Of a stretch of 64,000 nucleotides of DNA, positions 21,485 to 53,515 are shown in pieces. Position 1 is the stretch's first letter, and each line of letters starts with the position of its first letter. Position numbers and translations under genes: made by a program. The stretch covers positions 1,798,001 to 1,862,000 of the forward strand of contig NZ_LT629787.1 in assembly GCF_900105655.1 (NCBI RefSeq), given 5' to 3'. The stretch comes from Halopseudomonas salegens (lineage in GTDB: Bacteria; Pseudomonadota; Gammaproteobacteria; Pseudomonadales; Pseudomonadaceae). Below the pieces are notes generated by a model. It was not told the origin of the DNA, ran no database searches, and worked only from the letters and a program-made list of their open reading frames with translations.

Positions 21485-21510
21485 GGCCAAGTTCAGGAGC
21501 GCATGAGCAT

Positions 21511-22161
21511 ATGAAAACAATTGGAGTGATAGGTGCTGGAGGATTTGGTCGTGAAGTCATGCCGCTAGTTAGAAAAATGATGAATGATCAAGAAGAGAAG
21601 GATTTTGTTTTCATTGTTGAAGATGAGTATGACACTGGAACCCAAACAATAAATGAATACAACGTTATAAAATTAAGTGATTTTCTCAAAATTAAAGGTG
21701 AGAAATATTACTGCATCGCAATTGGAGATTCAAAAATAAGAGAGAGGATCTCTACAAAAATTCCAGAAAACATGGCGACTCCTATCTCAGTTTTCTCAGA
21801 AACTCACATATCATTAGATCAGAACATGATTGGACCTGGCGCCATATTTTCCAACTTCACTCATGTAACATCAAATGCAAAGATCGGCAAGCACTTTCAT
21901 TGCAACATATATTCATATGTGGCACATGACGTTGTAATAGGAGATTATGTAACTTTCGGGCCAGGGGTAAAGTGCAATGGTCATGTAGTCGTGGAAGATC
22001 ATGTTTATATTGGCACCGGTGCAATCATAAAGGATGGAACACATAGTCCAATCACTATTGGTCAGGGGGCGATTATTGGGATGGGCGCCGTCGTAACCAA
22101 AAGCGTAGCTCCAGGCGAAATAGTTGTAGGGAACCCTGCAAGGCCAATTAAAAAAAATTAA
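21511..22161 (+). CDS. NeuD/PglD-type hexapeptide-repeat sugar acetyltransferase
   Basis: 216 residues: an N-terminal PglD domain (MKTIGVIGAGGFGREVMPLV) followed by a left-handed beta-helix of hexapeptide repeats (IGKHFHCNIYSYVAHDVVIG, VYIGTGAIIKDG, IGQGAIIGMGAVVTKSVAPG). Such enzymes N-acetylate the 4-amino group of UDP- or dTDP-amino sugars (PglD, VioB). It directly follows the aminotransferase, whose stop is at 21484, supporting a two-step pathway. Start chosen at 21511 because residue 1 then opens the Rossmann strand. Confidence 0.88.
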   Translation: MKTIGVIGAGGFGREVMPLVRKMMNDQEEKDFVFIVEDEYDTGTQTINEYNVIKLSDFLKIKGEKYYCIAIGDSKIRERISTKIPENMATPISVFSETHISLDQNMIGPGAIFSNFTHVTSNAKIGKHFHCNIYSYVAHDVVIGDYVTFGPGVKCNGHVVVEDHVYIGTGAIIKDGTHSPITIGQGAIIGMGAVVTKSVAPGEIVVGNPARPIKKN

Positions 22162-22191
22162 GCCGGCTTTAACTAGACTGTTTAGATTGTT

Positions 22192-23376
22192 ATGAAAATC
22201 CTACATATTGCAACGGACGATAAATTCATAGAGCAGGCCATCCCTGTATTTGAAAGTGTATTTCCGGGCAAGAACGACGTGATAATTTTCACCAAAACAA
22301 CGCCGCTTCAATACGTTAAGCTTCAGACTGCAAAAGTAGTATTAAAAAACAAATTATTCTTTACAAGGGCCGCTGTAGATAGAGAAATCTACAACAGATA
22401 TGAAATAATAGTTTTTCATTCATTCTCACACTTAACATATCCAGAAATATTCAACATACCCATAAACAAGGCGACAATATGGCTTGGATGGGGGTATGAC
22501 TACTACGAGGATACGCTCGGGAAAGATACATTACTGCTTGAGAAAACGCTTAATCTTTCAAAAAGGCTCGAACCAACAACACCCATATATGTCATCAAGA
22601 AAATAATTAAGAAATCAGCTGTGTTCTTGGGTGTTATCGCTTCAAAGAAAAAAGCCATTGAGCGCCTAACGATATTTGCGCCTGTCCTCCCATCTGAATT
22701 TGATATGGTCAAAAATTCCAAGAATTGGAAGCGATTTCCTGACCATGCCATTTGGAATTATGGAACCATAGAGGATAATTTGATAAAAGGCTTTGAAACT
22801 GAGAGCGTGAGCGGAAATTCCATTCTTGTAGGAAATAGTGCGTCCTTAGAGTGCAACCACGCTGAAGCCTTCGACATATTGAAAAGCATAGGGATAAGTG
22901 ACCGAAAAGTTGTTGTCCCCTTAAGCTACGGCCAATTGGAATACAGCAAACTGATATCGACCCTTGGCAAGGACTACTTCGGCGAAAACTGTGAATCTTT
23001 AAATACGTTCATGCCTATTGAAGATTACGTCAAGACCATAAGGAAATGCGGCTACGTAATAATGAATCATAAGCGTCAGCAAGCGGTTGGAAATATCGTG
23101 ATCATGCTTTACCTGGGAGCCCGAGTATTTGTCCGCACTGAAAACCCAGTGTTCCGTTTTTTTAATAGCTTGGGTATTCAGCTATCCACGATGGAAGAGC
23201 TGGAAAACAATCATGACCTTATTAACACCCCCCTCTCCAGAGCTGAGCGAGCCTGGAATAGAAAAACTGTCAGCAATTACTGGTCGCGAGAAAAAGCATT
23301 TAGAAGAACCGAGCAACTCATCAACAATGCGTTTTCTCTAAGCCAGCAATACAACACAGATTCAAAAAAGCATTAA
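22192..23376 (+). CDS. WecF-like (GT56) 4-acetamido-4,6-dideoxyhexose transferase
   Basis: 394 residues. The C-terminal half matches the WecF/Glyco_transf_56 pattern: ILVGNSASLECNHAEAFDIL, RKVVVPLSYGQLEY, FMPIEDYVKTIRKCGYVIMN, HKRQQAVGNIVIMLYLGARV. In enteric bacteria WecF adds dTDP-Fuc4NAc to lipid II of enterobacterial common antigen at the inner membrane. The aminotransferase-acetyltransferase pair upstream could supply that donor. Strongly AT-rich, unlike wecB. Assignment rests on recalled motif similarity. Confidence 0.75.
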   Translation: MKILHIATDDKFIEQAIPVFESVFPGKNDVIIFTKTTPLQYVKLQTAKVVLKNKLFFTRAAVDREIYNRYEIIVFHSFSHLTYPEIFNIPINKATIWLGWGYDYYEDTLGKDTLLLEKTLNLSKRLEPTTPIYVIKKIIKKSAVFLGVIASKKKAIERLTIFAPVLPSEFDMVKNSKNWKRFPDHAIWNYGTIEDNLIKGFETESVSGNSILVGNSASLECNHAEAFDILKSIGISDRKVVVPLSYGQLEYSKLISTLGKDYFGENCESLNTFMPIEDYVKTIRKCGYVIMNHKRQQAVGNIVIMLYLGARVFVRTENPVFRFFNSLGIQLSTMEELENNHDLINTPLSRAERAWNRKTVSNYWSREKAFRRTEQLINNAFSLSQQYNTDSKKH

Positions 23377-23399
23377 CGACTTGACGGTCGAGAAAATAA

Positions 23400-24092
23400 A
23401 TGAAAATAAGCAAGAATCATCACAACAGAAAACTCCATAATTGGTTGGCATATGATATTGGAGATCAGTTCTTAATAAAATATGTAGACCGATATAATGG
23501 AACACTCTACGACTTGGGCTGTGGCGAGTCACCGTACAAAGATTTTTTTCTGACTTATGCTGACCGCTATGTAGGGGTTGATTGGACAGGCAGCCTGCAC
23601 AACACGAAAGCTGACATTGCAGCTGATTTGAATAAACCTTTTCCCATTGAGTCTGACGTGGCAGACACCATCGTGTCACTTTCAGTCCTGGAACATCTTT
23701 GTGAACCACAAAATATGCTGGATGAAGCCTTCCGCATCCTGAAGCCAGGGGGCAATATTGTCCTTCAGGTGCCTTGGCAGTGGTGGATACACGAAGCTCC
23801 TTACGATTTTTTCCGTTATACACCTTACGGCTTGAAGTATATGCTCGAGAAAGCAGGATTCAGGGATATCTTGGTGGAAGCGCAATCAGGCTTTTTCTCT
23901 ATGTGGATCCTGAAAGCCAATTATTTCAGTAGACGATTGATAAAAGGGCCAAAGCCTCTTCGCTGGCTTATAGGGGCCATTTTGAGCGTGATATGGTTTG
24001 TGAATCAGAAAACAGCGCCACTACTCGACAAACTGGATCGCAATTGGGACCTGGAAACCAGTGGCTACTATGTAACCGCAAGGAAATCCTGA
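23400..24092 (+). CDS. SAM-dependent methyltransferase (class I)
   Basis: 230 residues. Motif I is LYDLGCGESPYKDFF, with VGVDWTGSLHNTK (motif II) and IVSLSVLEHLCEPQNMLDEA, LKPGGNIVLQVPWQWWIHEA. This is the Methyltransf_11/25 type often found in O-antigen clusters, where it may methylate a sugar or cap a chain. A C-terminal hydrophobic stretch (LRWLIGAILSVIWFV) suggests membrane association. Base composition is higher in GC than the flanking WecF-like gene. Substrate unknown. Confidence 0.8.
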   Translation: MKISKNHHNRKLHNWLAYDIGDQFLIKYVDRYNGTLYDLGCGESPYKDFFLTYADRYVGVDWTGSLHNTKADIAADLNKPFPIESDVADTIVSLSVLEHLCEPQNMLDEAFRILKPGGNIVLQVPWQWWIHEAPYDFFRYTPYGLKYMLEKAGFRDILVEAQSGFFSMWILKANYFSRRLIKGPKPLRWLIGAILSVIWFVNQKTAPLLDKLDRNWDLETSGYYVTARKS

Positions 24093-24093
24093 A

Positions 24094-25545
24094 ATGAGCT
24101 TGAAGGCTCAAGCGGTTAGCGGTGTTAAATGGACCGCTTGGTCAACCTTGCTTATCACTGCCTTTCAGTTTGCTCAGCTATCTATTCTAGCTCGCCTTCT
24201 GGACCCGGCCGATTTCGGCCTCATGGCGGTAATGATGGTGGTCATCGGATTCTCTCAGGCCTTCCAGGACATGGGAATCAGCAACGCCATTATTCAGCGG
24301 CAAAATATAACCCATACACAGCTGTCAAGCCTGTACTGGCTGAACATCGCGTCGGGGATTGTGCTTTGCCTGATTGTAATGGCGATCTCCCCTTTGGCAG
24401 CAGACTTCTTCGACGAACCCAGAATCTCCGGGCTGATGAAAACCCTTTCCGGTGTTTTTATTCTGGTCGCAATCGGCAATCAGTATCGAGTACTTTGCCA
24501 AAAGGCGCTGCAATTTCGCTATACGGAAACCATCGATATCATTGCAGCTGCAGGATCTCTTGTTGTAGCTGTTTACTTCGCTTTACAGGGAGCGGGTGTA
24601 TTGGCCCTTGTATACGCAATGCTGGCCCAGGCAGGCCTGGCAAGCGCCTTGTTTCTCTGGGTTGGCTTGCGCGAATATCACAGGCCGTCGCTTGTTTATC
24701 GGCACGCCGAACTGAAAGGGTTCTATGGATTTGGCCTGTACCAAATGGGTGATCGCTGTATCAACTACCTCGCTACCAACGCTGACAAATTGCTTATCGG
24801 GAAAATGGTGGGAATGAGTGCAGCCGGCTTTTACAACCTGGCATGGCAACTCATCATTTTTCCAGTCAGCAAGATCAACCCCATTGTTACCAAGGTTGCT
24901 TTCCCGGTCTATTCCAAGGTTCAGAATGACTTCACGGCTCTGAACCGATATTACACATTCAATGTGAAGGCATTGTCTTTGGTTACCTTGCCAATACTTG
25001 CCTTTCTGTTCTTCTTCTCGCATGACGTCGTTCGGATTGTATTTGGTACTGGATGGTCCGCTACCGCTGAATTGATTCCAGCCCTTGCGCTTGTAGGTAT
25101 GCTGCGGGCGCTGGGCAATCCCGGTGGGGCGATTGTGCTGGCCCTGGGAAGAGCGGATGTGGGCTTTTGGTGGAATGTTGTATGGTCTGTTTCTATCGTG
25201 ACCGCGCTCACCCTGGGGTTAATGATATCCCCCTCCGCACATACTGCAGTCAACATTTTAGTCGCTTTGTCCATCACGCTAGGAACGTTCTGGCATGTCA
25301 TAATTGCAAGAATATCCAAAGTTGACTACTGGCCAATAGCCAGACATTTTTTCACCTTATTTACAGTAGTAATGGCTATAGGCTGGGCGGGAGCTTCATT
25401 GGTTGAGGGAAACGAAATAAACAATCCCGTATTACGGCTCGTCAGTGGCGGACTTTTCTGCATATTGACGTATGTGGTGTATCTTTATCTTTTCGAAAAA
25501 GAGATATTTAAAATACTGAGAAATCAAACCAATAATGAACTATAA
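24094..25545 (+). CDS. wzx: Wzx/WzxC-like polysaccharide flippase
   Basis: 483 residues with twelve or more hydrophobic helices; MOP superfamily, Polysacc_synt_3/MviN-like. It starts MSLKAQAVSGVKWTAWSTLL, and has RLLDPADFGLMAVMMVVIGF and QDMGISNAIIQRQN, the WzxC-type N-terminal signature. It would flip the undecaprenyl-linked repeat unit to the periplasm. One base separates it from the methyltransferase stop. Composition is intermediate, and it may have a different origin from its AT-rich downstream neighbours. Confidence 0.9.
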   Translation: MSLKAQAVSGVKWTAWSTLLITAFQFAQLSILARLLDPADFGLMAVMMVVIGFSQAFQDMGISNAIIQRQNITHTQLSSLYWLNIASGIVLCLIVMAISPLAADFFDEPRISGLMKTLSGVFILVAIGNQYRVLCQKALQFRYTETIDIIAAAGSLVVAVYFALQGAGVLALVYAMLAQAGLASALFLWVGLREYHRPSLVYRHAELKGFYGFGLYQMGDRCINYLATNADKLLIGKMVGMSAAGFYNLAWQLIIFPVSKINPIVTKVAFPVYSKVQNDFTALNRYYTFNVKALSLVTLPILAFLFFFSHDVVRIVFGTGWSATAELIPALALVGMLRALGNPGGAIVLALGRADVGFWWNVVWSVSIVTALTLGLMISPSAHTAVNILVALSITLGTFWHVIIARISKVDYWPIARHFFTLFTVVMAIGWAGASLVEGNEINNPVLRLVSGGLFCILTYVVYLYLFEKEIFKILRNQTNNEL

Positions 25546-25557
25546 CTCTGTAAGCAT

Positions 25558-26523
25558 ATGATGATAGAGAAATGCTCAATTATAATACCGATATATAACA
25601 GCTCGCAATTCATTGAAGAATCATTGAATAGCATTGAAAAACAAACAGCAAATATTGAAGCAGAAGTTATTCTAATAGATGACAAATCAGACGATCTAGG
25701 TATCCTAAAAAATAAAACCGAAAATTTTAAAAGATTTCCAATACGGCTTATTGAAAAGAAAGTAAAAAGCAATGCTGCTACAAGCAGAAACCTTGGATTA
25801 AAACTATCAAGCTCTGATTATATATTTCTATTGGATAGCGACGATTTGTTTATGCCAGAACACATCGAACAAAGAATAGAAACACATAAAAGAACAAAGG
25901 CAGGCATTATATTTAGCGATTTTAACTTAGCAAGCAATCAAAAAATCAAGGATGAGAACATAAAGCGCAGCGAATTCATCCTGTCAGATATGCGTGAATA
26001 CTTATTTGGCAACAATCAAAGCGACTTCCGAACCTCAACCATTAGCATATGTAAGTATTTTTACAAAGAAACATTATTTGATGACAGACAAAATAAACAT
26101 CAAGACTGGGGGTTCGCCGCCAGGGCATCTGACAACAATGAAAAAATTTATTTCAGCTCATCTAAAACCATTATCATTAATGAACAAATAAATCCTCTCA
26201 GGATGAGCAACAAACAAAACTTAGCTGCAACTGATTACTTTATTGAACAGTACCTGTCAGATAAAAAACATGTTGTGAATTTTTGCAAAAGGCATATTGG
26301 CAATGCTATAAGAAACCAAGACACCAACGCGACAGCTTATTACCGAAAAAAACTACTGCCATATTTGAAAGAAACACCAATAAAACTCAAAAATTTTAAC
26401 ATTCATTTCTTGCTGCTTTTTTCACCCAGCCTAATAAGCAGAACACTACTACGTATAATTGATATATTTAAACTTTGGAAATCTCGAACTTTTTTAAACA
26501 GTAAAGCTTGGAAAAAGCAATGA
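25558..26523 (+). CDS. Family 2 glycosyltransferase
   Basis: 321 residues, GT-A fold. N-terminus KCSIIIPIYNSSQFIEESLN, then VILIDDKSDD, NAATSRNLGLKLSSSDYIFL and the DXD-like LLDSDDLFMPEHIE. A later WGFAARASDNNEKIYFS region follows. It adds a sugar to the O-unit; donor unknown. Very AT-rich. Its stop overlaps the next start (ATGA at 26520). Confidence 0.88.
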   Translation: MMIEKCSIIIPIYNSSQFIEESLNSIEKQTANIEAEVILIDDKSDDLGILKNKTENFKRFPIRLIEKKVKSNAATSRNLGLKLSSSDYIFLLDSDDLFMPEHIEQRIETHKRTKAGIIFSDFNLASNQKIKDENIKRSEFILSDMREYLFGNNQSDFRTSTISICKYFYKETLFDDRQNKHQDWGFAARASDNNEKIYFSSSKTIIINEQINPLRMSNKQNLAATDYFIEQYLSDKKHVVNFCKRHIGNAIRNQDTNATAYYRKKLLPYLKETPIKLKNFNIHFLLLFSPSLISRTLLRIIDIFKLWKSRTFLNSKAWKKQ

Positions 26524-27191
26524 TAGAAAAAAGACTACACTACTGCTGGTTCGGCGGAAACACTCTACCTCCGTTACACCGTCGGTGCATTGAGTCCTGG
26601 AAACAAACTAATCCCGATTTTGAAATAATGAGATGGGATGAAACAAATACTGACTTTGATACACCTTTCCTTAAATATTCATTCAAGAAACGGCAGTGGG
26701 CATTCATATCTGACTATATCCGAATGCGTGTAGTCCATAAATTTGGTGGAGTATACTTAGATACAGACATGGAGGTAATAAAACCTCTTACGCCGTTACT
26801 CGATTCATTTTGCTTTTTGGGTGAAGAATCTAACGGGAGACCTAACACAGCAATTTTTGGTGCAACTACAAAACATTTATTCACTACAGAATGCATGAAA
26901 ATAATAGATCATCGTTTCAAAACCAATATGCCGTATTTAATTGCGCCAGAAGTAGCTATCCAAGCAATCATGAATATGGATGACACCAATATAAAAGTGC
27001 TGCCTTCAGAATATTTTTATCCATACAACCCTTATGATATCGAAAGAGAAACAAAAAACTTAATGTATGCCGATATTACTCATAACACCTATGCCATTCA
27101 CCATTGGGGAAAAAGCTGGGAGATGAGCCTATATGAAAGAATCAAACGAATCGCCAAAAAAAAACTACTTACTTCAAGAGCTGATTCATGA
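26520..27191 (+). CDS. Family 32-like glycosyltransferase (DXD sugar-binding)
   Basis: 223 residues with the Gly_transf_sug (GT32) pattern: KRLHYCWFGGNTLPPLHRRC, ESWKQTNPDFEIMRWDETN, AFISDYIRMRVVHKFGGVYL followed by DTDMEV, the DXD metal site. C-terminal HHWGKSW is also typical. Start chosen at 26520, whose ATG overlaps the preceding TGA. Likely adds one residue of the O-unit at the cytoplasmic membrane face. Confidence 0.88.
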   Translation: MIEKRLHYCWFGGNTLPPLHRRCIESWKQTNPDFEIMRWDETNTDFDTPFLKYSFKKRQWAFISDYIRMRVVHKFGGVYLDTDMEVIKPLTPLLDSFCFLGEESNGRPNTAIFGATTKHLFTTECMKIIDHRFKTNMPYLIAPEVAIQAIMNMDDTNIKVLPSEYFYPYNPYDIERETKNLMYADITHNTYAIHHWGKSWEMSLYERIKRIAKKKLLTSRADS

Positions 27192-28402
27192 AAATATTAG
27201 CTCCTAACATTCCTAGGTTATTATTAAAATCAGGTCCATACTCACTAACCCTAATAACTCTAGCCTTACTTGCCATTTCAGGTCTATCATCACCATATGA
27301 TTACAACTGGCTTCCAGCCTTTGGCATTCTTGAATTCACCTTTCTTATATCAGCAAGCTTAATCGCTACTAAACCAAAGCGTGAACTGCTGCCTTTGTTT
27401 GCTGTATTATTAGTATACTTGGTCACTACTTCAGTAATAGCTTACCAGACCAAGCCAACGCATACCCTGGATTACTTACAAGCATATAAAGCCTTTTTTT
27501 ACTTACTCCCCATCCCCTTTCTTATAAAATCAAAAAATGTAGACCCAAAGCTTGTTTTGTATTTTTTTTACTTTTTGATTTTTTGTTTTTTGTTAAAATA
27601 TAGTTACTCTAGAGTCGCTGAATTTACACCGCGAATGGCTGACCGCCCAGGCCTTTATGGTGAAAACAATTTTGAACTTATTTTCCTCATATTACTTTAT
27701 TATCTTTTAAGTATTAGAACATCCTTACCGAAAGCAATCTTACCCTTGCTGGCAGTAATAATCGTATTATCAGGCTCAAGAAGTGCAGCCTTAACTTTTT
27801 TAGCTGTATTTTTCTTTGCGCACTTGTCCCAGCTAAACTATCGCAGCATTATATACATCATAGTTCTCCCTGCTGTAGTAGCAATAGTTTACTATGTAGT
27901 AACATCGCGCGGAGAGTTAACCATTGAAACAATAGACAGGTTTAAATTCTTCAATATCTTTCTCTACGAAATCAGACATTGGAGCATTTTTGACTTTCTT
28001 TTAGGAACTAAGCCGATCACCCCTTTAAGTGGAGCAACCTGTTCTATTCTAAGCTACTATGATGACTTATACAGCTTATCCGGAGACCAGACATGTTACT
28101 CAGTAATATTGCATTCATATATACTGCGGGTTATATTTGATCATGGAGTATTGGGCTTATTATTTATAATAATATTTTATTATTCAACACTTAAACTTTG
28201 CAAGTTTTCATCTAAAGATGCAATCTGCTTTATAACTATCATGTTACTTTCAGCGCTTTCGGTCTCATCATTTAATAGCATATTCTCACCATTAGCATTG
28301 CTTTTTTTTATAGCACTTAAAGGTACACATGAAAAAGAAACAATCATCAGACATCCTAAGACTCATATCGGAAAAAAACAAAAGCTCCTGCCAAATCAAT
28401 AG
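27188..28402 (+). CDS. wzy: Wzy-like O-antigen polymerase
   Basis: 404 residues, about eleven transmembrane helices, few recognisable motifs, highly AT-rich: the usual profile of Wzy. A central hydrophilic loop (SRVAEFTPRMADRPGLYGEN) and a second large loop (residues about 255-310) resemble periplasmic loops of polymerases. It sits between glycosyltransferase genes and overlaps both neighbours (4 bp upstream, 74 bp downstream). Called by topology and position rather than by motif. Confidence 0.75.
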   Translation: MKILAPNIPRLLLKSGPYSLTLITLALLAISGLSSPYDYNWLPAFGILEFTFLISASLIATKPKRELLPLFAVLLVYLVTTSVIAYQTKPTHTLDYLQAYKAFFYLLPIPFLIKSKNVDPKLVLYFFYFLIFCFLLKYSYSRVAEFTPRMADRPGLYGENNFELIFLILLYYLLSIRTSLPKAILPLLAVIIVLSGSRSAALTFLAVFFFAHLSQLNYRSIIYIIVLPAVVAIVYYVVTSRGELTIETIDRFKFFNIFLYEIRHWSIFDFLLGTKPITPLSGATCSILSYYDDLYSLSGDQTCYSVILHSYILRVIFDHGVLGLLFIIIFYYSTLKLCKFSSKDAICFITIMLLSALSVSSFNSIFSPLALLFFIALKGTHEKETIIRHPKTHIGKKQKLLPNQ

Positions 28403-29075
28403 TAATTCAGGGGAGAATACTACCTTCATAAATCACTATTCTTACGGTATTCTTCGGAAACATATTGAACTTTTGGAAAACTTTACATCTATTCACATAG
28501 ATGGAATCTTACTTTGCATCGTATTAAATAGAATTGGAATCCCAGTTCGTCGTTTAAGCTTTGATATGACATCGCTTGCCCCCGCTGTTTTTGAGCGCGC
28601 CTCAAGAACCAATGAGTCAATAATACTTGTGGGCGGTGAAACAGGAGTCGCTAGAATTGCTGCAAGTAATTTCTGTCAAAAACACCCTGGCCTGAATATC
28701 ATTGCAGTATATTCAGGTTTTTTCCCTCCAGAGCGCCCCAAAGAAGATGTTTTAAATGAAATCCGCTCTGCTGCCCCTGATATCGTCATATGTGGTATGG
28801 GTACACCTCGCCAGGAAGAGTTTTTAGATGAATTAACTAAAGCTGGCTGGCGCGGCACTGGATACACTTGCGGTGGTTTTTTACATCAAACAGCAAAAAG
28901 AGGAAATACCTATTACCCAACCTGGGCAGACAAGTATAATCTTCGCTGGCTATACCGAATCTACGACGAGCCCAAGCTTTTTAGTCGCTATACTATTGAT
29001 CTTATTCGTTTTCTTTATTTCTTCGTTCACGATTATTACCGATATAAAAAATATAATCAATCAACTATAAGGTAA
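28329..29075 (+). CDS. WecG/TagA/CpsF family glycosyltransferase
   Basis: Up to 248 residues. The PF03808-type core is present: HIDGILLCIVLNRIGI, RLSFDMTSLAPAVFERASRT, IILVGGETGVARIAASNF, YSGFFPPERPKEDVLNEI, IVICGMGTPRQEEFLDEL, and GYTCGGFLHQTAKRGNTYYP. WecG adds ManNAcA, TagA ManNAc. The 74-bp overlap with wzy suggests that the true start may be downstream of 28329, but no in-frame ATG fits until past the HIDG motif, so an alternative start codon may be used. Last gene of the O-antigen block. Confidence 0.85.
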   Translation: MKKKQSSDILRLISEKNKSSCQINSNSGENTTFINHYSYGILRKHIELLENFTSIHIDGILLCIVLNRIGIPVRRLSFDMTSLAPAVFERASRTNESIILVGGETGVARIAASNFCQKHPGLNIIAVYSGFFPPERPKEDVLNEIRSAAPDIVICGMGTPRQEEFLDELTKAGWRGTGYTCGGFLHQTAKRGNTYYPTWADKYNLRWLYRIYDEPKLFSRYTIDLIRFLYFFVHDYYRYKKYNQSTIR

Positions 29076-29092
29076 TTCCCTCTAAAAACCAG

Positions 29093-29735
29093 AGAGCTCA
29101 AAAGTAGAGCTAACCGCAACGAAATTCTGCATGAAAAATCACGTTTTTCCGATAGCCAAATTATGGCAATTCTCAAACAAGCTGAGAACGGCGTGCCGGT
29201 ACCCGAGCTGTACCGTGAACACCGCATGTGCAGTGCCAGCTTTTACAAATGACGAGCCAAGTTCGGCGGCATGGTTACGTCAATGATGAAGTGTCTGAAA
29301 GAGCTCGAAGATGAAAACCGGCGGTTAAAGAGAATGTATGCCGAAGAGCGTCTCTAGTCAGAGCTGCTTAAAGAAGCCCTGGAAGGGAAGTTTTAAAGCG
29401 ATCTCTACGTCTTGAGATGGCACACAAAGCGGTTGCTGATGCCCGTTGCAGTATTCGTTGGCCTGCGCCATCTTGAGTGTCAGCGAATCCTTTATCGCTT
29501 CCAAGCCAAACTCAGAAGTAAAAATGCGGAGAGCGCCGACCTGCTGGTGGGGTTAATTCACAACAAGCGCAACTTGGCTTTAGCCTATTTTTCCTGTACT
29601 TGCGCAACGTGAAAAGACACTCCTGGAGCCACAAGCGCGTTTATCGGATTTACCGGAAACTGTAACTGAACATGCGGATCAAGCCCTGCAAGCGGCTGGT
29701 TCGTGAGTAGCCCAAGCCGCAGGTCGTGCCGACGG
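29093..29735 (+). mobile_element. Degenerate IS3-family insertion sequence (orfA and orfB remnants)
   Basis: The orfA frame from 29133 reads KSRFSDSQIMAILKQAENGV, then PELYREHRMCSASFYK, a TGA where Trp is expected, RAKFGGM, LKELEDENRRLKRMYAEERL and a TAG stop. orfB similarity resumes as RSLRLEMAHKAVADARCSIR and, after another frame change, KNAESADLLVGLIHNKRN and a truncated HKRVYRIYRKL stretch. At least two nonsense codons and further frame changes show that it is dead. The 5' edge (CTCAAAAGTAGA) recurs at 30600 beside a second copy. It closes the O-antigen block on the right. Confidence 0.85.
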
Positions 29736-29792
29736 CCATTAACACCAGCTTATATGTACATGAAAATTTTACGGTTAAATCTAGGGGAAAAT

Positions 29793-30548
29793 ATGAAGAA
29801 GCTAATTAAGTCCGCCGCAAAAAAAATACTTCCGAAATCTATCACAAATGAAATTAAAGCAATTATAAATGCTAGGTCCGATAGAACTCCAATTGCTAAA
29901 AGGCACTGCAACATTTGTGGTTATGAGGGTTTTTTTAAGGGGTTTGGACGGCCGACGAGGCTTGACGCGTGTTGTCCAAAATGTGGTTCTCTTGAGCGCC
30001 ATCGACTCCTCATGTTGGGAGTTGAACGTGGATCGATTTTGAATTTTGATAACAAGAATGCTGCTGTTTTACATTTTGCTCCAGAACCGATTTTAGAAAA
30101 AATTTTTAGAGATCGTTTTTCTGATTACTGTACTGCTGATTTATTTGCAGAGTCTGATATAAAATTAAATATAGAAGATATAGATTTAGGTGATGAGAAG
30201 TACGACATTGTCATTGCAAACCATGTGTTAGAACATGTTGATGATAGGAAAGCATCTAGAGAACTATCTAGAATTTTGAAGAAAAATGGAATTCTTATTT
30301 GTCAAGTCCCTATCATTGAGGGGTGGGATAAAACCTATGAAAATGACAATATCTGTACTGATTTAGAGCGTTGGGTACACTTTGGGAAAGATGATCACAT
30401 AAGGTTTTACGGTAAAGACTTTAGGGACAGGATTTCTGAGAGTGGATTTAACCTGTTTCAGGAGATAACCGCTGAAGGTGTAGATGTTGTCAATAATGGT
30501 TTACTTCGTGGTGAAAAAGTTTTTGTTTTTCAAAAAGCTAGCAACTGA
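29793..30548 (+). CDS. SAM-dependent methyltransferase with N-terminal Cys-rich motif
   Basis: 251 residues. A zinc-ribbon-like segment HCNICGYEGFFKGFGRP ... DACCPKCGSLERHRLL precedes a class I methyltransferase core: AVLHFAPEPILEKIF, YDIVIANHVLEHVDDRKASR and LKKNGILICQVPII. Such proteins occur in surface-polysaccharide loci; the substrate is unknown. Start at 29793 follows AGGGGAAA; the longer frame runs into IS debris. AT-rich, lying between two IS3 remnants, so it was perhaps carried in with them. Confidence 0.85.
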   Translation: MKKLIKSAAKKILPKSITNEIKAIINARSDRTPIAKRHCNICGYEGFFKGFGRPTRLDACCPKCGSLERHRLLMLGVERGSILNFDNKNAAVLHFAPEPILEKIFRDRFSDYCTADLFAESDIKLNIEDIDLGDEKYDIVIANHVLEHVDDRKASRELSRILKKNGILICQVPIIEGWDKTYENDNICTDLERWVHFGKDDHIRFYGKDFRDRISESGFNLFQEITAEGVDVVNNGLLRGEKVFVFQKASN

Positions 30549-30596
30549 AGATATCCATCTAACGTAAAAACAGGCAGTTAAAGCGAGGAACCGGAG

Positions 30597-30655
30597 CGCT
30601 CAAAAGTAGAATTTTCCGTAAGCTAAACGCAGCGAGACTCTTCATGGAAAAATCA
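30597..30655 (+). mobile_element. 5' end of a second IS3-type remnant (left of IS256 insertion)
   Basis: CTCAAAAGTAGA followed by a leader resembling that at 29093 and the codons ATGGAAAAATCA. After removing the IS256-type element and one copy of its 8-bp target duplication, this joins 31962-32010 into an orfA start reading MEKSRFSDSPIMAILKQAES. Confidence 0.8.
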
Positions 30656-31953
30656 GAGGGTGTTCAAAACTCTGTGTCACCGACAGCAGCGTCACAGACT
30701 GATGTATTCGTCCAGGCGCTCGGGGAAGTGGATGGCCATCTGCGACAGCGTCAGGTTCCAGTTCTGAACGGGGTGGGTCCAGCGCTCGGATGCCTTGAGT
30801 ATACCGGCATAGAGCAGCTTCAGTAAGGCGTTCTCACTGGCAAAGCCGCCCTTGGTCTTGGTCAGCTTGCGGAACTGGCGATGCACAGCCTCCACCGCAT
30901 TGGTGGTGTAAATCGCAGTGCGGACGTAATCGGGATATTTGAAGTAGGCCGATAGGGTTGGCCATTTGCCCCGCCAAGACTTGATCACCATTGGATATTT
31001 CTCGCCCCATTTGGCTTCCAGTTCATCGAGTGCGATTTCTGCGGCGTTCAGCGTTGCAGCCTTGTAGACGGGCTTCAGATCAGCCATGAAGGCTTTCTGG
31101 TTTTTCGATGCGACATACTTCAGCGAGTTGCGGATCTGGTGAATCACGCAATGCTGGATTTCCGTTTTCGGGTAAATGCTCTCGATGGCTTCCGGGAAGC
31201 CTTTCAGGCCATCTACACAGGCGATCAGGATGTCCTTAACGCCACGATTGTAGAGGTCTGTCAGCACGGAGAGCCAGTGATGGGCGCCTTCCTGGTCGGA
31301 CAGATACAGGCCAAGCAGCTCCTTCTTTCCCTCGATGTTCAGGGCGAGAATGGTGTAGATGGCCTTGCTGACGTAACGCCCGTTTTCCTTGATTTTGTAG
31401 TGAATGGCGTCAAGCCAGACAATTGGATAGATGACTTCAAGATCACGCTCTCGCCATGCCTGTAGCTCTGGCAGAAGTTTGTCGGTGACAGCATTGATGG
31501 TGCCGTTGGACAGCTCAATATCATATAACTCAGCAATGTGAGCGCGGATGTCCTGGTACCTGTTGCCGAGCGCAAACAGGGCCAGGATTTTGCGCTCCAG
31601 CTCATCGGTCAGGTGCGTCTGGTGTTTCTTGATAAGCTGGGGCTCGAAGGTGCCGCTGCGGTCACGGGGCGTCTTCAATTCGAAGCTGCCGACGGGGCCT
31701 TTCATGGTCTTGCCAGTCGTGCCATTCTTGCGGTTCGGCGTGGCCTCTTTGGCAAGATGATTGTCCAACTCAGCCTGCATGGCGGCTTCGGTGAGTTGCT
31801 TGATCAACGGCGTGAGAATGCCGTCTTTACCGGTCAAATCCTGGCCGTCACGCAGGGCTTGCAGGGCGGCGTCAATGTCGAATGTGGGTTTGCTCATGGT
31901 TCACCTCTCTGATGAGTAGATTAAAGAGGTGACACAGAATTATGAACACTACC
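30656..31953 (-). mobile_element. Intact IS256-family insertion sequence (1298 bp)
   Basis: 26-bp imperfect terminal inverted repeats at 30656-30681 and 31928-31953 share GTGTTCA-AA-TCTGTGTCACC. Both ends are bordered by the direct repeat AAAAATCA (30648-30655 and 31954-31961), an 8-bp target duplication. The element carries one full-length transposase on the minus strand. It is inserted in the first codons of an IS3-type orfA remnant. Intact ends and duplication point to a recent insertion. Confidence 0.95.
30692..31897 (-). CDS. IS256-family (Transposase_mut) transposase
   Basis: 401 residues, normal length for the family. N-terminal region with KDGILTPLIKQLTEAAMQAE and NRKNGTTGKTMKGPVGSFEL; catalytic DDE core with VIYPIVWLDAIHYKIKENGR, LIACVDGLKGFPEAIESIYP, the C/H motif QHCVIHQIRNSLKYV, and the C-terminal Glu region IYTTNAVEAVHRQFRKLTKT. 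No frame disruption is visible, so it is probably active. Confidence 0.95.
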   Translation of the reverse strand: MSKPTFDIDAALQALRDGQDLTGKDGILTPLIKQLTEAAMQAELDNHLAKEATPNRKNGTTGKTMKGPVGSFELKTPRDRSGTFEPQLIKKHQTHLTDELERKILALFALGNRYQDIRAHIAELYDIELSNGTINAVTDKLLPELQAWRERDLEVIYPIVWLDAIHYKIKENGRYVSKAIYTILALNIEGKKELLGLYLSDQEGAHHWLSVLTDLYNRGVKDILIACVDGLKGFPEAIESIYPKTEIQHCVIHQIRNSLKYVASKNQKAFMADLKPVYKAATLNAAEIALDELEAKWGEKYPMVIKSWRGKWPTLSAYFKYPDYVRTAIYTTNAVEAVHRQFRKLTKTKGGFASENALLKLLYAGILKASERWTHPVQNWNLTLSQMAIHFPERLDEYISL

Positions 31954-32010
31954 AAAAATCACGTTTTTCCGATAGCCCGATTATGGCAATCCTCAAGCAA
32001 GCCGAGAGCC
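31954..32010 (+). mobile_element. Right part of interrupted IS3-type orfA remnant
   Basis: Begins with the target duplication AAAAATCA and continues with the orfA codons RFSDSPIMAILKQAES, then similarity stops at about 32008, where different IS-like sequence begins. It closely matches 29132-29190, so two relics of one IS family lie 2.8 kb apart. Confidence 0.8.
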
Positions 32011-32011
32011 T

Positions 32012-32504
32012 ATGTGTCAGCGTAGTTATCGCCTGATAATTTCAGAGGACAACCATGCCCATTACTCACCGGAACGTGAGGAAGCCATCCTCTAGAAGAT
32101 GGCCCCACCTCATAGCCTGACGGTGGCCGAGCGAGCAGGTCGGGAAGGCATGAACCGCGATCTTGTACAATTGGAGTGAAGCAGCCAGAGATCGAGGTTC
32201 CGTTTTGCCGTCGAACTCAGCCACTCCTAAAAAGTGGAGTAGAGAAGAGAAGTGCCGCATTGTTCTGGAGACTGCCCCAATGACCGAGGCGGAGCGCAGC
32301 GAATATTGCCGCAAGCACGGTCTGTATCCGGAGCAAGTCGAAGCTTGGAAGACTGCCTGCATGGTTGCCAACGCTCATTCTCACGAACAGGCCAGGCGTC
32401 ACCGGAAAGCGGCTAGTCGAGCCCGCTACAAAGAGCGTTTCACATGGGAGCGAGTCCTTGGTGAATACGAACAATTGCTGACTAAGTGGTACCCATCCAA
32501 ATAA
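32012..32504 (+). pseudogene. Degenerate transposase OrfA of another IS3-type element
   Basis: One frame gives HYSPEREEAIL, a TAG, then KMAPPHSLTVAERAGREGM; after a frame change from 32163 the match resumes as LYNWSEAARDRGSVLP, KKWSREEKCRIVLETAPMTE and SEYCRKHGLYPEQVEAWKTA, a known pattern of HTH transposase OrfA proteins. A stop, a frame change and no OrfB show a relic. The open 113-codon frame at 32163 is part of this pseudogene and is not an independent gene. Confidence 0.75.
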
Positions 32505-32585
32505 TTACAAGTCAGCCTATCTCATTCACAGGACAGCAACTGTCGGTGCCCACTTAAATTGGTTATGTTCTGAAAAGGAGTTTTC

Positions 32586-33464
32586 ATGAAAGGCATCATC
32601 CTCGCCGGCGGCTCTGGAACCCGTTTGCACCCTATTACCCGTGGCGTTTCAAAGCAGCTGTTGCCAATCTACGATAAACCAATGATTTATTATCCGCTGT
32701 CTGTTCTTATGTTGGCGGGCATTCGTGAAGTGCTGGTCATCTCAACACCAGAAGATCTCCCCTGCTTTCGTAAACTACTGGGAAATGGCTCGGATTTTGG
32801 TATTGAACTCAGCTATGCGGAGCAGCCCTCCCCTGACGGTCTGGCTCAGGCCTTCCTTATTGGCGAGAAGTTCATTGGCGACAGCAATGTCTGCCTGATT
32901 CTTGGTGATAACATTTTTTATGGCTATGGCTTCAGTGCCATGCTGCATGAAGCTGCGTCACGTGAGAAAGGCGCGACGGTATTTGGCTACCACGTTAGCG
33001 ATCCAGAGCGTTTTGGTGTCGTTGAGTTTGGTAGCAATGGAAAAGCTATCTCCATAGAAGAAAAACCTGCGATACCAAAGTCCAGCTATGCGGTAACCGG
33101 ATTGTATTTTTATGATAGCGACGTGGTCGACATCGCCAGACAGGTAAAACCTTCTCACCGTGGTGAGCTGGAGATTACTGATATCAACAATGCCTATCTG
33201 CAGCGTGGCGATCTGCATGTGAGCTTGCTCGGGCGAGGTTTCGCCTGGCTGGATACCGGTACCCATGACTCCCTGATGGAAGCCAGCCATTTTGTACATA
33301 CCATTGAGTCGCGCCAGGGACTGAAGGTCGCTTGCCTGGAAGAAATAGCCTATCACCAGGGTTGGCTGGACGCAGCGCAATTGGAAGAGCAAGCCAACGC
33401 GCTCAGCAAGACCGGATATGGTCAGTACCTGCACAAGTTGCTGGTGAATCAGCAACCTAGTTAA
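32586..33464 (+). CDS. rmlA: Glucose-1-phosphate thymidylyltransferase
   Basis: 292 residues, the standard RmlA/RffH length. It begins [20 protein letters not shown] (nucleotide-binding), then [67 protein letters not shown], and [20 protein letters not shown]. It makes dTDP-glucose, the precursor of dTDP-4-keto-6-deoxyglucose and thus of the amino sugar suggested by the aminotransferase at 20375. AAAAGGAG precedes the ATG. It stands alone after the IS region; rmlB, C and D are not in the window. Confidence 0.95.
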
Positions 33465-33516: not shown

Positions 33517-34105
33517 ACCCGGCAGCCCTGATGGGCTGCTGTGCCGAGTGCAACTCGGCGTTCCCAGGCGGTGGTGGTCCCAAAGCGTGGCGGTGCCAGC
33601 TGCTGCTTACCCATCGATCGTCGGTCCGACAGTGTTGTTGGTTGCAAGCACCGCCCTGCCGGTGGCACTGCTGCCGGGAACGCCGAGTTGCACTCGGCTG
33701 GCAGTGCGTAGCGCTGCTTGAGTTAAACCCGCCAGCCCTGGCGGGCTACTATGCCGAGTGCAACTCGGCGCTCCCAGACGCTGGTGGTCCCAAAGCGTGG
33801 CGGTGCCAGTTGCTGCTTACCCATCGTCGTCGGTCCGACAGTGCTGTTGTTTGCATGCACCGCCCTGCCGGTGGCACTGCTGCCGGGAACGCCGAGTTGC
33901 ACTCGGCTGGCAGTGCGCAGCGCTGCTTGGGTTAAACCCGGCAGCCCTTGCGAGCTGCTTTGCCGAGTGCAACTCGGCGGTCCCAGGCGCTGGTGGTCCC
34001 AAAGAGTGGCGGTGCCAGCGGCTGCTTACCCATTGATCGTCGGTCCGATAATGATATTGGTTGAGTGCACGGTGCTGCCGGTGGCGCTGCTGCCGGGAAC
34101 GGGCG
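33517..34105. repeat. REP/BIME array C (209-bp composite units)
   Basis: Inverted-orientation palindromes GCCGAGTGCAACTCGGC start at 33543, 33753 and 33962 (intervals 210 and 209); forward copies GCCGAGTTGCACTCGGC start at 33682 and 33891 (interval 209). Each forward copy is followed by GCAGTGCG(C/T)AGCGCTGC, and each inverted copy is preceded by GCAGCCC-N4-GGGCTGC-like stems. Spacers between units are also conserved (GGTGGTCCCAAAG ... CTGCTGCCGGGAACG). The final unit is cut at GGGAACGGG near 34100. Confidence 0.9.
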
Positions 34106-42427: not shown

Positions 42428-42745
42428 CCGGCAGCCCTTTGGGCTGCATTGCCGAGTACAATTCGGCGGTCCCAGGCGCTGGTGGTCCCAAAGAGTGGTG
42501 GTGCCAGTTGCTGCTTACCCATCGATCGTCGGTCTGACAATGTTGTTGGTTGCAAGCACGGCCCTGCCGCCGGCGCCGCTTACTGGGAACGCCGAGTTGT
42601 ACTCGGCTGGCAGTGCGCAGCGCTGCTTGGGTTACACCCGCCAGCCCTGGCGGGCTGCTATGCCGAGTGCAACTCGGCGGTCCCGGAAACCCGGCAGCCC
42701 TGATGGGCTACTTGCCGAGTGCAACTCGGCGCTCCCGGAAAACCG
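42428..42745. repeat. REP/BIME array D
   Basis: Inverted palindromes at 42451 (one mismatch), 42662 and 42714, and a forward one at 42591 followed by GCAGTGCGCAGCGCTGC. Inverted copies are preceded by GCAGCCC-N3/4-GGGCTGC-type stems. The spacer between 42470 and 42590 matches that of array C. The last copy ends about 20 bp before the higA stop. Confidence 0.88.
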
Positions 42746-43549: not shown

Positions 43550-43690
43550 CACCGCCCTGCCGGTGGCACTGTTGCCGGGAACGCCGAGTTGTACTCGGCT
43601 GGCAGTGCGCAGCGTTGCTTGTGTTACACCCGCCAGCCCTGACGGGCTGCTATGCCGAGTGCAACTCGCCGATCTCGGACCTCGGTAGTC
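43550..43690. repeat. REP/BIME array E (single composite unit)
   Basis: Forward palindrome at 43583-43599 with GCAGTGCGCAGCG(T)TGC, and an inverted, slightly decayed palindrome at 43654-43670 (ends CTCGCC). Preceded by the conserved spacer CACCGCCCTGCCGGTGGCAC. It lies upstream of the LamG-like protein gene. Confidence 0.85.
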
Positions 43691-45502: not shown

Positions 45503-46350
45503 CCGGGAACGCCGAGTTGTACTCGGCTGGCAGTGCGCAGCGCTGCTTGGGGTGGTGTTTGGTGGTGTGGTGCCGGATTCAGGTGAACCCGGCAGCCCTG
45601 GCGGGCTGCTGTGCCGAGTGCAACTCGGCGGTCCCAGATGGCGGTCCCGAACAACGGCGGTGCCAGCTGCTGCCTTTCCATCAATCGTCGGTCCGAGAGT
45701 GATGTTGGTTGAGTGCACCGCCCTGCCGGTGGCGCTGCTGCCGGGAACGCCGAGTTGTACTCGGCTGGCAGTGTGCAGCGCTGCTTGGGGTGGTGTTTGG
45801 TGGTGTGGTGCCTGATTCAGGGAACCCGGCAGCCCTGATGGGCTGCTGTGCCGAGTAAAGCTCGGCGGTCCCGGATGGCGGTCCCGAACAACGGCGGTGC
45901 CAGCTGCTGCCTTTCCATCAATCGTCGGTCCGAAAGTGATGTTGGCTGAGTGCACCGCCCTGCCGGTGGCGCTGCTGCCGGGAACGCCGAGTTGCACTCG
46001 GCTGGCAGTGCGCAGCGCTGCTTGGGGTGGTGTTTGGTGGTGTGGTGCCGGATTCAGGTGAACCCGGCAGCCCTGGCGGGCTGCCGTGCCGAGTACAACT
46101 CGGCGGTCCCAGATGGCGGTCCCGAACAACGGCGGTGCCAGCTGCTGCCTTTCCATCAATCGTCGGTCCGAGAGTGATGTTGGTTGAGTGCACCGCCCTG
46201 CCGGTGGCGCTGCTGCCGGGAACGCCGAGTTGTACTCGGCTGGCAGTGTGCAGCGCTGCTTGGGGTGGTGTTTGGTGGTGTGGTGCCTGATTCAGGTGAA
46301 CCCGGCAGCCCTAGCGGGCTGCTATGCCGAGTGCAACTCGGCGGTCCCAG
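45503..46350. repeat. REP/BIME array F (four units, 237-238-bp period)
   Basis: Forward palindromes start at 45511, 45749, 45986 and 46224 (intervals 238, 237, 238). Each is followed by GCAGTGYGCAGCGCTGC and, about 100 bp later, by an inverted palindrome (45613, 45850, 46088, 46326). The second inverted copy has an altered loop (GCCGAGTAAAGCTCGGC) that keeps a stem. Units are almost identical, including a TGGTGTTTGGTGGTGTGGTG insert absent from other arrays. The open frames across it are repeat translations. Confidence 0.92.
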
Positions 46351-48196: not shown

Positions 48197-48582
48197 CCGG
48201 GTACGCCGAGTTGTACTCGGCTAGCAGTGCGCAGCGCTGCTTGGGTTAAACCTGGCAGCCCTCGCGGGCTGCTTTGCCGAGTGCAACTCGGCGTTCCCAA
48301 ATGGCGCTCCCTGAGAGTGGCGGTGCGAGTTGCTGCTTTCCCATCACTCGTCGACCCGGCAGCGCTGTTGACTGGGTGCACGGCCTTGCCGCCGGCGCTG
48401 CTGCCGGGTACGCCGAGTTGTACTCGGCTGGCAGTGCGTAGCGCTGCCTGGGTTAAACCCGCCAGCCCTGGCGGGCTGCTTTGCCGAGTGCAACTCGGCG
48501 TTCCCAGAACGGCACACCCTGCACGACTCCCTGGGTGCGCCGAGTTGCACTCGGCTAGCCGTCCGCAGGGCGGCCGGGGTTG
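48197..48582. repeat. REP/BIME array G, downstream flank of the RAYT gene
   Basis: Forward palindromes start at 48205, 48412 (interval 207) and 48539; inverted ones at 48276 and 48483 (interval 207). The leading bases are GGGTAC or GGGTGC rather than GGGAAC. The copy at 48539-48555 reaches the RAYT stop codon, and its second hairpin (CCGTCCGCAGGGCGG) lies inside the last RAYT codons. Confidence 0.9.
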
Positions 48583-49172
48583 GATCGCACAGGTCCAAAA
48601 GCACTGCTCCAATGCCACAGTTCAGGTTTTGCCACCAAACCCGCCTGCACCGGGTTTTCTTCGATATAGCGAATGACAGTCAGCAAATGCCGCTCGCTGC
48701 GAATAAATCTGTCCCAATAATCCCGATGCCACAAAGGCCCTGTACCAGAGCATGCCAGCCGGCCAATCTGGCGACTGCTGTAACGCTTCCAGCCCTGCAC
48801 CACTTTACCCAATGGCCAGTCTGGTAGTTGCTCGAACAGCACATGCACATGGTTGGGCATTACCACCCAACGCAGCAGCCGATACCGCAAGCCATCACCA
48901 AACAACAACGCTTCCTGCATGATCGTGGCCGCCTCTGTATTGGCAAGCACGCAGCTGCCATACCCGGCATCCAGTAACTGATCCAGCTTGAGCAGACGTT
49001 GAGGTTCAGCGGAGGCCAATGGCGATTCGAGTGCCTCGGCTCGCAGCCGCATCAGTGCTTGCCGAGGTAGAGAGTCAGCCAAATGAAAACAGACATGTTG
49101 CACCGTACCCGGTACATCGAAGTGCGGAATATAGCCGCGAGAGACCCAGCCATCCTTGATTAAATCAGACAT
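48555..49172 (-). CDS. REP-associated tyrosine transposase (RAYT, Y1_Tnp)
   Basis: 205 residues of the IS200-like Y1 transposase domain found in RAYTs. The HUH metal site is VVMPNHVHVLFEQLPDWPLG; the N-terminal strand is GTVQHVCFHLADSLPRQALM; the C-terminal region has GPLWHRDYWDRFIRSERHLL and the catalytic-Tyr helix VIRYIEENPVQAGLV. RAYTs are single-copy domesticated enzymes that nick and join REP palindromes. This one lies directly between palindrome arrays G and H, and its 3' end overlaps a REP, so it is the likely cognate enzyme for all arrays in the window. No IS ends are visible around it. Confidence 0.93.
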   Translation of the reverse strand: MSDLIKDGWVSRGYIPHFDVPGTVQHVCFHLADSLPRQALMRLRAEALESPLASAEPQRLLKLDQLLDAGYGSCVLANTEAATIMQEALLFGDGLRYRLLRWVVMPNHVHVLFEQLPDWPLGKVVQGWKRYSSRQIGRLACSGTGPLWHRDYWDRFIRSERHLLTVIRYIEENPVQAGLVAKPELWHWSSAFGPVRSNPGRPADG

Positions 49173-49258
49173 GATTCATCCTTGCCGAGGTTTATCCATA
49201 ATCCCTGGACGCAGAATACACCCATTGAGCACTGCTTCGCAGTGCTGGCCAAATGCAC

Positions 49259-49830
49259 TCCCGGGAACGCCGAGTTGTACTCGGCTGGCAGTGCGCAGCG
49301 CTGCTTTGGGTTACACCCGGCAGCCCTGGCGGGCTGCTTTGCCGAGTACAACTCGGCGGCCCCACAAGGCGCTCCCTTAGAGTGTCGTTTCCATCAATCG
49401 TCGACCCGGCAGCACTTTGACCAGGTGCACGGTTCTTCCGCTGGCGCTGCTGCTGGGAACGCCGAGTTGTACTCGGCTGGCAGTGCGCAGCGCTGCTTTG
49501 GGTTAAACCCGCCAGCCCTGGCGGGCTGCTTTGCCGAGTGCAACTCGGCGGTCCCACAAGGCGCTCCCTTAGAGTGTCGGTTCGAGTTGCTGCTTTCCCG
49601 TCACTCGTCGACCTGACAGCGCGGTTGACTGAGTGCACGGCCTTGCCGCCGGCGCTGCTGCCGGGTACGCCGAGTTGTACTCGGCTGGCAGTGCGCAGCG
49701 CTGCCTGGGTTAAACTCGCCAGCCCTGGCGGGCTGCTGTGCCGAGTGCAACTCGGCGTTCCCGGAAAAAAGGTAGCCCTTTGCGTTGCGTTGTCGAGTGC
49801 AACTCGGCGGTCCCACATGAAGGCGGTCCC
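49259..49830. repeat. REP/BIME array H, upstream flank of the RAYT gene
   Basis: Forward palindromes start at 49269, 49461 and 49669; inverted ones at 49341, 49533, 49740 and a decayed one at 49792 (GTCGAGT...). Composite units are 192 and 208 bp. The first copy lies 97 bp upstream of the RAYT start codon. Spacers resemble those of array G more than those of array F, so G and H expanded together. Confidence 0.9.
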
Positions 49831-53239: not shown

Positions 53240-53515
53240 CGGGCAGCCCTATGGGCTGCTATGCCGAGTGCAACTCGGCGTTCCCGAAACAGCAAAACCT
53301 GCACGCCTCCCTGGGTGCGCCGAGTTGTACTCGGCTGGCAGTGCGCAGCGCTGCTTTTGTGTATGTGGTTTGGGTAACGGCCTTGCTGGTGGGGACCCTG
53401 GCAGCCCTGCGGGCTGCTGTGCCGAGTGCAACTCGGCGTTCCCATAACAACAAAACCTGCGTGCTTCCCTGGGAGCGCCGAGTTGTACTCGGCTGGCAGT
53501 GCGCAGCGCTGCTTT
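53240..53515. repeat. REP/BIME array I
   Basis: Inverted palindromes start at 53263 and 53420 (interval 157), forward ones at 53319 and 53477 (interval 158). Forward copies start with GGGTGC or GGGAGC and are followed by GCAGTGCGCAGCGCTGC. Located between the ends of two converging genes (permease and epimerase), a possible bidirectional terminator position. Confidence 0.9.

Follow-up and report, generated by a model that had tools for sequence, protein, structure and literature searches.

Why should the repeats that accompany one transposase gather in a single tract of a chromosome? The question is raised by a locus of Halopseudomonas salegens, where a gene for a REP-associated Y1 transposase (RAYT) stands between arrays of the palindrome GCCGAGT-N3-ACTCGGC, whose copies we treat as repetitive extragenic palindromes (REPs). 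The window, meaning the whole stretch of 64,000 nucleotides that was analysed, covers positions 1798001-1862000 of a genome that is a single contig of 3,796,005 bases, rated 100% complete. This genome holds 56 exact palindromes, and 54 of them lie inside 1781811-1851493 (70 kb); the other two, at 3580219 and 3580269, form one site with a near copy at 3580151. Counted as array sites, 12 of the 13 fall in the 70 kb, or 1.84% of the chromosome, and the chance bound for so many in such a span is about 1e-17 under uniform placement. Clustering in one chromosomal territory, which surrounds a polysaccharide locus, is the standout feature here, RAYT/REP pairing being already known.

We consider it likely that the locus is a REPtron, that is, a RAYT with its cognate REP family, and that its REPs occupy one territory around the polysaccharide locus. 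The palindrome family looks real and fairly old, and the kind of system is already known. A first-pass annotation of the same DNA had suggested that the system may be actively spreading; the counts above contradict a genome-wide spread, and active spreading is unproven.

The RAYT gene and its palindromes

The gene and its surroundings comprise the following features (window coordinates, with a strand where one applies; G and C numbers are our labels for genomes and their contigs, L numbers for loci).

48555..49172, minus strand: RAYT, 205 aa, frame open throughout
48533..49208: REPtron unit, made of REP 48539-48555 (plus strand), the RAYT and a degenerate inverted REP-like stretch at 49182-49208; compared with G190 C21:45923-46640
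48199..48555: REP array downstream of the RAYT, with inverted REP doublets (REPINs) at 48205-48292 and 48412-48499 and a single REP at 48539-48555
49263..49814: REP array upstream of the RAYT, with REPINs at 49269-49357, 49461-49549 and 49669-49756 and a REP at 49792-49808 (one mismatch)

The first-pass annotation had placed a Y1 transposase here with arrays within 100 bp on each side, and this was confirmed. REP 48539-48555 touches the stop codon of the RAYT, and the first upstream palindrome (49269), part of an intact REPIN, lies 97 bp from its start codon. The gene is thus flanked by inverted REPs on both sides, the immediate right-hand one (49182-49208) being degenerate as read by eye. One copy of a 269-nt direct repeat, 93% identical between the two, also stands on each side of the RAYT.

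The protein has the Pfam domain Y1_Tnp and scores 84.9 bits on the profile NF047646 REP_Tyr_transpos (cut-off 80), versus 26.6 bits on the IS200 profile NF033573, under its cut-off of 55. Its HuH motif (NHVH, residues 107-110) and its tyrosine motif (YIEENP, Tyr169) are intact. With phmmer it matched the TnpA-REP of PDB 4er8 (E 1.2e-4), the HuH and tyrosine regions being aligned; we take Y115 to be the nucleophile of 4er8. An IS200/IS605 insertion sequence was rejected, since it needs multiple near-identical transposase copies and this genome has one RAYT above the cut-off. A second Y1 match in the genome scores weakly, at 33.3 bits, in a frame that overlaps the gene of a Mutator-type transposase. 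That Mutator-family transposase (401 aa) occurs both at window 30692-31897 and at about 222.9-224.1 kb of the genome (L006:1786-2991), with 3 of 1206 bases differing, and it is in L006 that its frame overlaps the second Y1 gene, weak on the RAYT profile. Carriage of the RAYT by phages or plasmids was also rejected: phage records gave no match to it, and none of the 12 matches among plasmid records extended across more than 80% of the query. The palindrome occurred once in each of 16 stretches of viral contigs, and these single copies are taken as background.

The exact palindrome occurs 39 times in the window and in none of 100 dinucleotide shuffles. Allowing up to one mismatch gives 43 copies, in agreement with the earlier count of over forty, and the density then called unusual holds locally. 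Near-exact copies included, the window and the 20 kb before it contain 62 REPs in 12 arrays. The palindrome is multi-copy, as canonical REPs are (56 exact copies in the genome), and carries the 5' tag GGGANC: G stands at -6, -5 and -4 in 60, 61 and 62 of the 62 REPs, respectively, and C at -1 in all 62.

REPs in inverted pairs form REPINs, with the doublet structure, conserved interior and single hairpin expected of them. There are 23 such doublets, 88-119 bp overall and in both orientations. Two REPINs, one of which was folded on both strands, reached z of -8.5 to -8.9 as single-stranded DNA, and 0 of 200 shuffles were equally stable; a single REP with its RAYT-side flank reached only -1.6. 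The interior, GCAGTGCGCAGCGCTGC ... GGCAGCCCTGGCGGGCTGC, is common to G190, the genome with the closest RAYT, and recognisable in G074 (Halopseudomonas yangmingensis). The long conserved spacers that had been noted earlier are mostly these REPIN interiors, with array spacers besides. Mean pairwise identity is 90% among 22 REPINs of H. salegens and 82% between them and four of G190. This fits turnover, which is as much as we can say for spreading in a family still confined to 70 kb.

The pairing of RAYT and REP extends to relatives. Among 198 family genomes (a scan without the genus genomes G198-G201), three have the exact palindrome: H. salegens with 56 copies, G190 with 14 and G174 with one. 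The RAYT of G190 is 78% identical to ours and has the same palindrome on both sides; 13 of the 14 copies are on its contig C21 (49,922 bases), and 11 of these are packed into 1.35 kb around the gene. The RAYT of G074 (60% identical, and matched by database search in NZ_FOUI01000012.1 of the same species) is flanked by a base-compensated variant of the palindrome. Its stems are GACT/AGTC and GAAT/ATTC, together with GGAT/ATCC outside that pattern, and between species stems differ on both sides together. G074 has 76 variant copies, on 6 of about 50 contigs: 37 on the RAYT contig C11 (104,244 bases), 13 on C13, 12 on C15, 8 on C20, and 3 each on C17 and C24. A palindrome-rich genome without a related RAYT, the case that would have spoken against the pairing, was not seen among the 198.

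A RAYT-like match was found in 34 of 37 genus genomes. In a tree, the RAYTs of H. salegens, G190 and G074 and one G190-like metagenome protein group together (support 94/93), apart from 17 other genus RAYTs (100/99) and next to proteins from other phyla. For this tree 25 genus RAYT rows were entered, of which five were dropped for having no frame by rule, and nine homologues were added by choice from 120 listed; L021 and L024 (stop inside the match), L041-L043 and second copies without a locus were excluded. Of 27 genus RAYT loci, 13 had GGG-tagged hairpins on each side at a distance of no more than 450 bp, compared with 23 of 1000 random control positions (27 of 30 loci entered the test, L041-L043 being omitted as partial or weak). 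Co-occurrence and co-diversification thus support a RAYT/REP pairing.

Array places shared between species and the territory in relatives

The other arrays of the territory and the genes that they surround are listed below (minus coordinates lie before the window start).

15651..15892, plus strand: REP array, three REPs in one orientation
16949..17459, plus strand: REP array, five REPs in one orientation with a 123-124 bp period
33543..33978: REP array, two REPINs and one REP
42451..42730: REP array, one REPIN and two REPs
43583..43670: single REPIN
45511..46342: REP array, four long REPINs (118-119 bp)
53263..53493: REP array, one REPIN and two REPs
-16189 to -15683: array place A, three REPINs in H. 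salegens
-11453 to -11197: array place B, two REPINs and no RAYT in H. salegens
-4968 to -4078: array C
10539..33464: genes for surface polysaccharide biosynthesis, within the REP territory (Pfam on nine proteins, eight polysaccharide-related)

The seven arrays inside the window are those that the first-pass annotation had counted in addition to the two beside the RAYT. Contig C21 of G190 runs collinear with H. salegens between -24 and -8.4 kb, and there the two species share array places. At place A, H. salegens has three REPINs and G190 one, in opposite orientation and at a different base, so an independent insertion is possible; the REPIN of G190 at this place resembles copies of H. salegens more (identity up to 89%) than it does the remaining copies of G190 (up to 79%). 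The place is free of the palindrome in all six other genomes examined (G098, G112, G074, G119, G149 and G004). Place B has a pabB-type gene on one side and a P-type ATPase gene on the other (types assigned by profile), and here G190 has its RAYT with arrays, where H. salegens has two REPINs and no RAYT. The REPIN at -11300 of this place has a long interior like the REPINs of G190. In G074 the counterpart of array C lies at C11:50551-51418, next to the same gene, and the sole G190 copy off C21 (C6:43884) is near the counterpart of window 54640-55234. In G074, contigs C11, C20 and C24 partly match the territory; part of C13 matches a stretch at 94-104 kb, beyond it, and other genes of the territory are on contigs without these REPs, such as C22.

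The RAYT therefore stands at different arrays in H. salegens and G190, an outcome that could come from transposition, from recombination between similar arrays, or from an ancestral pair of which each species lost a different copy. The two RAYT genes are 74% identical in DNA, compared with 76-91% for the collinear blocks of C21, so either these genes evolve faster, as RAYT genes are reported to do (PMC2817692), or the two are paralogues. By eye, the RAYT of G190 ends inside a half REPIN; since the stop codon in H. salegens touches a REP, the gene looks inserted into, or grown from, a REPIN. In three published pairs of orthologous rayt genes the position is unchanged (PMC2817692). Our literature search found no paper on REPs of Halopseudomonas and, judged by titles and the beginnings of abstracts, none on RAYT relocation.

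In two genomes, the region that corresponds to the territory has gathered REPs belonging to other RAYTs. G119 has 27 REPs of the form GTCGAGC-N4-GCTCGAC between 0.40 and 2.92 Mb; four of these stand beside its RAYT, at 2.452 Mb, and 13 fall in 2838661-2919001, an 80-kb cluster about 0.39 Mb from the RAYT that this REP type flanks. G134 has 34 REPs, of which 16 lie in C7:220581-301817 (81 kb), its RAYT (one TAG inside the match) being on C12. With sites merged, 5 of 13 in G119 and 6 of 20 in G134 fall in the region (binomial P of 9e-6 and 5e-6). The excess was noticed first and homology to the territory checked afterwards; in G119 the 80 kb are homologous to parts of the territory and include a GC-poor stretch. 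Both genomes share sites by descent, so they represent one lineage and one case. In G098, six hairpins of its RAYT types were counted in 100 kb around the polysaccharide-region genes, eight in the 20 kb with its RAYT, and none in 100 kb elsewhere.

A RAYT inside the polysaccharide regions of the relatives was rejected as a simple cause of this accumulation. By tblastn of six polysaccharide stretches, including that of H. salegens, none was found in those of G134, G098, G149 and G004. The region of G119 has one distant Y1 gene (2899137-2899496) among other repeats, which makes G119 a less clean case; G134 is unaffected. By eye this gene shows DHFH and YVIANP and lies inside arrays of a GTAGGAGGCGCGA-type repeat (G119:C1:2898400-2900200, L109/L110).

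The genes of the polysaccharide stretch are of the Wzz/tyrosine kinase type, sugar transferase, UDP-GlcNAc 2-epimerase, sugar dehydrogenase, aminotransferase, flippase type, glycosyltransferase and nucleotidyl transferase. The Mutator-type transposase at 30692-31897 lies among them, and the window is GC-poor by composition from 20 to 32 kb. Genes identified by profile or homology stop beside the arrays; some mechanical longest-frame open reading frames overlap them, and those frames look spurious. Neither known RNA families nor tRNAs were found in the window.

Some further observations concern single arrays and other repeats. In array 16949-17459 the usual inverted partner is missing, and a GCCAAGT-N3-ACTTGGC variant occurs at 17395, with a related variant at 15828. 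Between 36 and 56 kb, blocks beside REP arrays map apart in G098 (49896-53217 to 2081003-2084324, and 36630-38741 to 2566325-2568436), so some arrays are at or near synteny breaks. A short dispersed repeat, unrelated to the REPs, lies at 36463-36549 and 39245-39329, bracketing a stretch of conserved genes, and is present in at least six of nine congeners. Another repeat, CCCCTCTCCC...GGGAGAGGGG, lies at L001:765-925 and L001:11669-11712 and has many matches in G149 and G004.

Explanations for the territory

As for mechanism, analogy with the RAYT family makes it most likely that the RAYT would bind one strand of the REP hairpin in single-stranded DNA, during replication or repair. It would then cleave near the hairpin foot through Tyr169 and rejoin the ends, which may copy or relocate REPINs. 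The periodic arrays, with periods of, for example, 123 and 207 bp, could then arise by tandem duplication and by recombination among similar arrays. Binding of the folded REP in single-stranded DNA, cleavage by the tyrosine and strand transfer are described for the family (PMC8266576, PMC6006769), and we infer a mobilisation of REPs by this RAYT on the same analogy.

Several points weigh against this reading. The motif after the tyrosine is NPVQAG, which deviates from the NP(L/V)(R/K)xG described for RAYTs (PMC2817692) in having Q for R/K, the remainder agreeing; by today's defining profile the predicted protein nevertheless belongs to the RAYT / TnpA-REP family. Palindrome-coded peptides, which count in favour of the reading, occur in 44 of the 120 homologous proteins listed of 3126 found (residue shuffles gave a mean of 1.7 and a maximum of 5; the peptide list was broad, with 76 entries built on 3 stems and 10 loops), but the RAYT of H. 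salegens has none in frame. The tag GGGANC differs from the GT[AG]G at the hairpin foot of canonical REPs, and 14 of the 27 genus RAYT loci lacked tagged hairpins on at least one side. Moreover, the arrays could grow by recombination alone. Concerning the region, the concentration is weak in G149, with only three GTCGAGC-type REPs in 56.7 kb where about one is expected, along with five of the GTAGCGC type in the same stretch. G004 has none in a 41.5-kb contig, where about 1.3 are expected from 125 in 4.1 Mb; in this genome the family is not tied to a RAYT. A territory set by the region is supported clearly by one lineage, in part by G098, and not by G004.

Could proximity to the RAYT alone explain the territory, the enzyme acting near its own gene by cis preference or by local reinsertion into nearby single-stranded DNA? 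We regard this as a real possibility, though one that we lean against. It fits the distances, as a radius of 35 kb around the RAYT takes in 39 of the 56 exact copies and one of 65 kb takes in 54, and it fits G190, where copies gather at the gene and on its contig; it is also near the published reading for four other genomes (PMC2817692; for Marinomonas, PMC8266576). The REPs of G134 on a contig other than that of its RAYT and the distant cluster of G119 speak against it, with the caveats that the two share sites by descent and that the region of G119 contains a distant Y1 gene. We think that two things shape the territory, the presence of the RAYT and a region in which REPs are tolerated or favoured; the second is suggested by G119 and G134, whose corresponding region has gathered REPs of other RAYTs. 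The fuller proposal is one that we put forward only tentatively: Halopseudomonas may have a long-lived REP territory at the polysaccharide locus, where several unrelated RAYT/REP families accumulate regardless of where their RAYT lies, and the RAYT may shift from array to array between species. Selection that keeps REPs here, for instance as terminators or mRNA-protecting hairpins of the polysaccharide and neighbouring genes, would agree with another REP family being concentrated in the corresponding region of G119 and G134; given that array number varies between species, that place A is empty in all six genomes examined and that the G004 contig has no REP excess, we find it quite improbable.

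That the arrays are passive repeats growing by tandem duplication and recombination, with the RAYT a passenger caught in one of them, seems unlikely to us. Regular periods of 123-124 and 207 bp and near-identical neighbours such as the 269-nt pair speak for it, but genus RAYTs often have tagged hairpins of their own type on either side, the stems of the two flanks vary in concert between species, and place A, occupied in H. salegens and G190 and free in the six others, indicates that new places are reached. Least probable is a block with RAYT and REPs that arrived too recently to have spread. The grouping of this RAYT clade with proteins of other phyla, apart from the other genus RAYTs, and the absence of the palindrome from 195 of the 198 family genomes are in its favour. 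Against it, G190 has arrays at places A and B and G074 a counterpart of array C, beside the same genes, while the RAYTs have already diverged to 78% and 60% identity; array places common to these species make recent arrival insufficient. Besides, arrays A and B break into a run of genes that G098, G112 and G119 keep in collinear order, so they do not make up one imported block.

The replication terminus was rejected as a cause, the dif-like site being at 1488166, 294-363 kb off the territory. With up to five changes allowed, no dif-like site was found in 144 kb around the window. Across G098, G119, G169, G157 and G082, the smallest distance from RAYT to dif-like site is about 371 kb (both on one large contig).

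Comparison with known systems

Clustering of REPs near a RAYT has so far been read as recent arrival. Here the clustering coexists with array places common to species whose RAYTs are 60-78% identical. If our tentative proposal is true, the geography of REPs would be set by the chromosome region, and not by the age of the RAYT. The RAYT on different arrays in sister species contrasts with the unmoved published rayt pairs (PMC2817692). With 13 mapped sites and empty places in relatives, this is a system where insertion, excision and dependence on the RAYT could be followed. All in all, what the first-pass annotation observed is confirmed, and its interpretation is partly supported.

The nearest known systems are the REPtron/RAYT (TnpA-REP) loci with REP and REPIN families of Escherichia coli, Pseudomonas fluorescens SBW25 and Stenotrophomonas (PMC3116915, PMC2817692). 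Like them, our locus has a protein with intact HuH and tyrosine motifs flanked by inverted REPs, doublets with conserved interiors and tandem REPIN clusters beside the RAYT; unlike them, it has GGGANC in place of GT[AG]G as its tag, and its copies, REPINs included, are nearly all confined to 70 kb, where theirs are dispersed over extragenic space.

REPs accumulated near a RAYT, over a span of at most about 200 kb, were described in three marine gammaproteobacteria and Thauera by Nunvar and others (PMC2817692), who read this as production near an acquired gene; the accumulation in Marinomonas MWYL1 was called recent (PMC8266576). Our REP-bearing stretch resembles these in being within about 200 kb around the RAYT. 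It departs from their recent arrival in that its places are common to species with RAYTs 60-78% identical and that the RAYT of G190 is at a different array.

Subclass 2.4 of TnpA-REP, or RAYT group 4, has the motifs NH[IFV]H, WQ and YIxNNP, and REP insertions inside its genes are reported (PMC6006769). The window RAYT shares with it NHVH, a length of about 200 aa, relatives in several phyla and the palindrome-coded insertions that many homologues carry, between HuH and Y among other positions, its own sequence being without one. It differs in having WH instead of WQ, YIEENP instead of YIxNNP, and a REP tag that is not GT[AG]G.

Finally, TIRYT/TIRtron systems (PMC3733652) are similar in their related Y1 transposases, found also in Acidobacteria, and in flanking inverted non-GTAG repeats that are multi-copy and sometimes self-complementary. 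Their shared motif is GGGGWSAS and ours GGGANC, and we set the two apart by this description, not by protein comparison.

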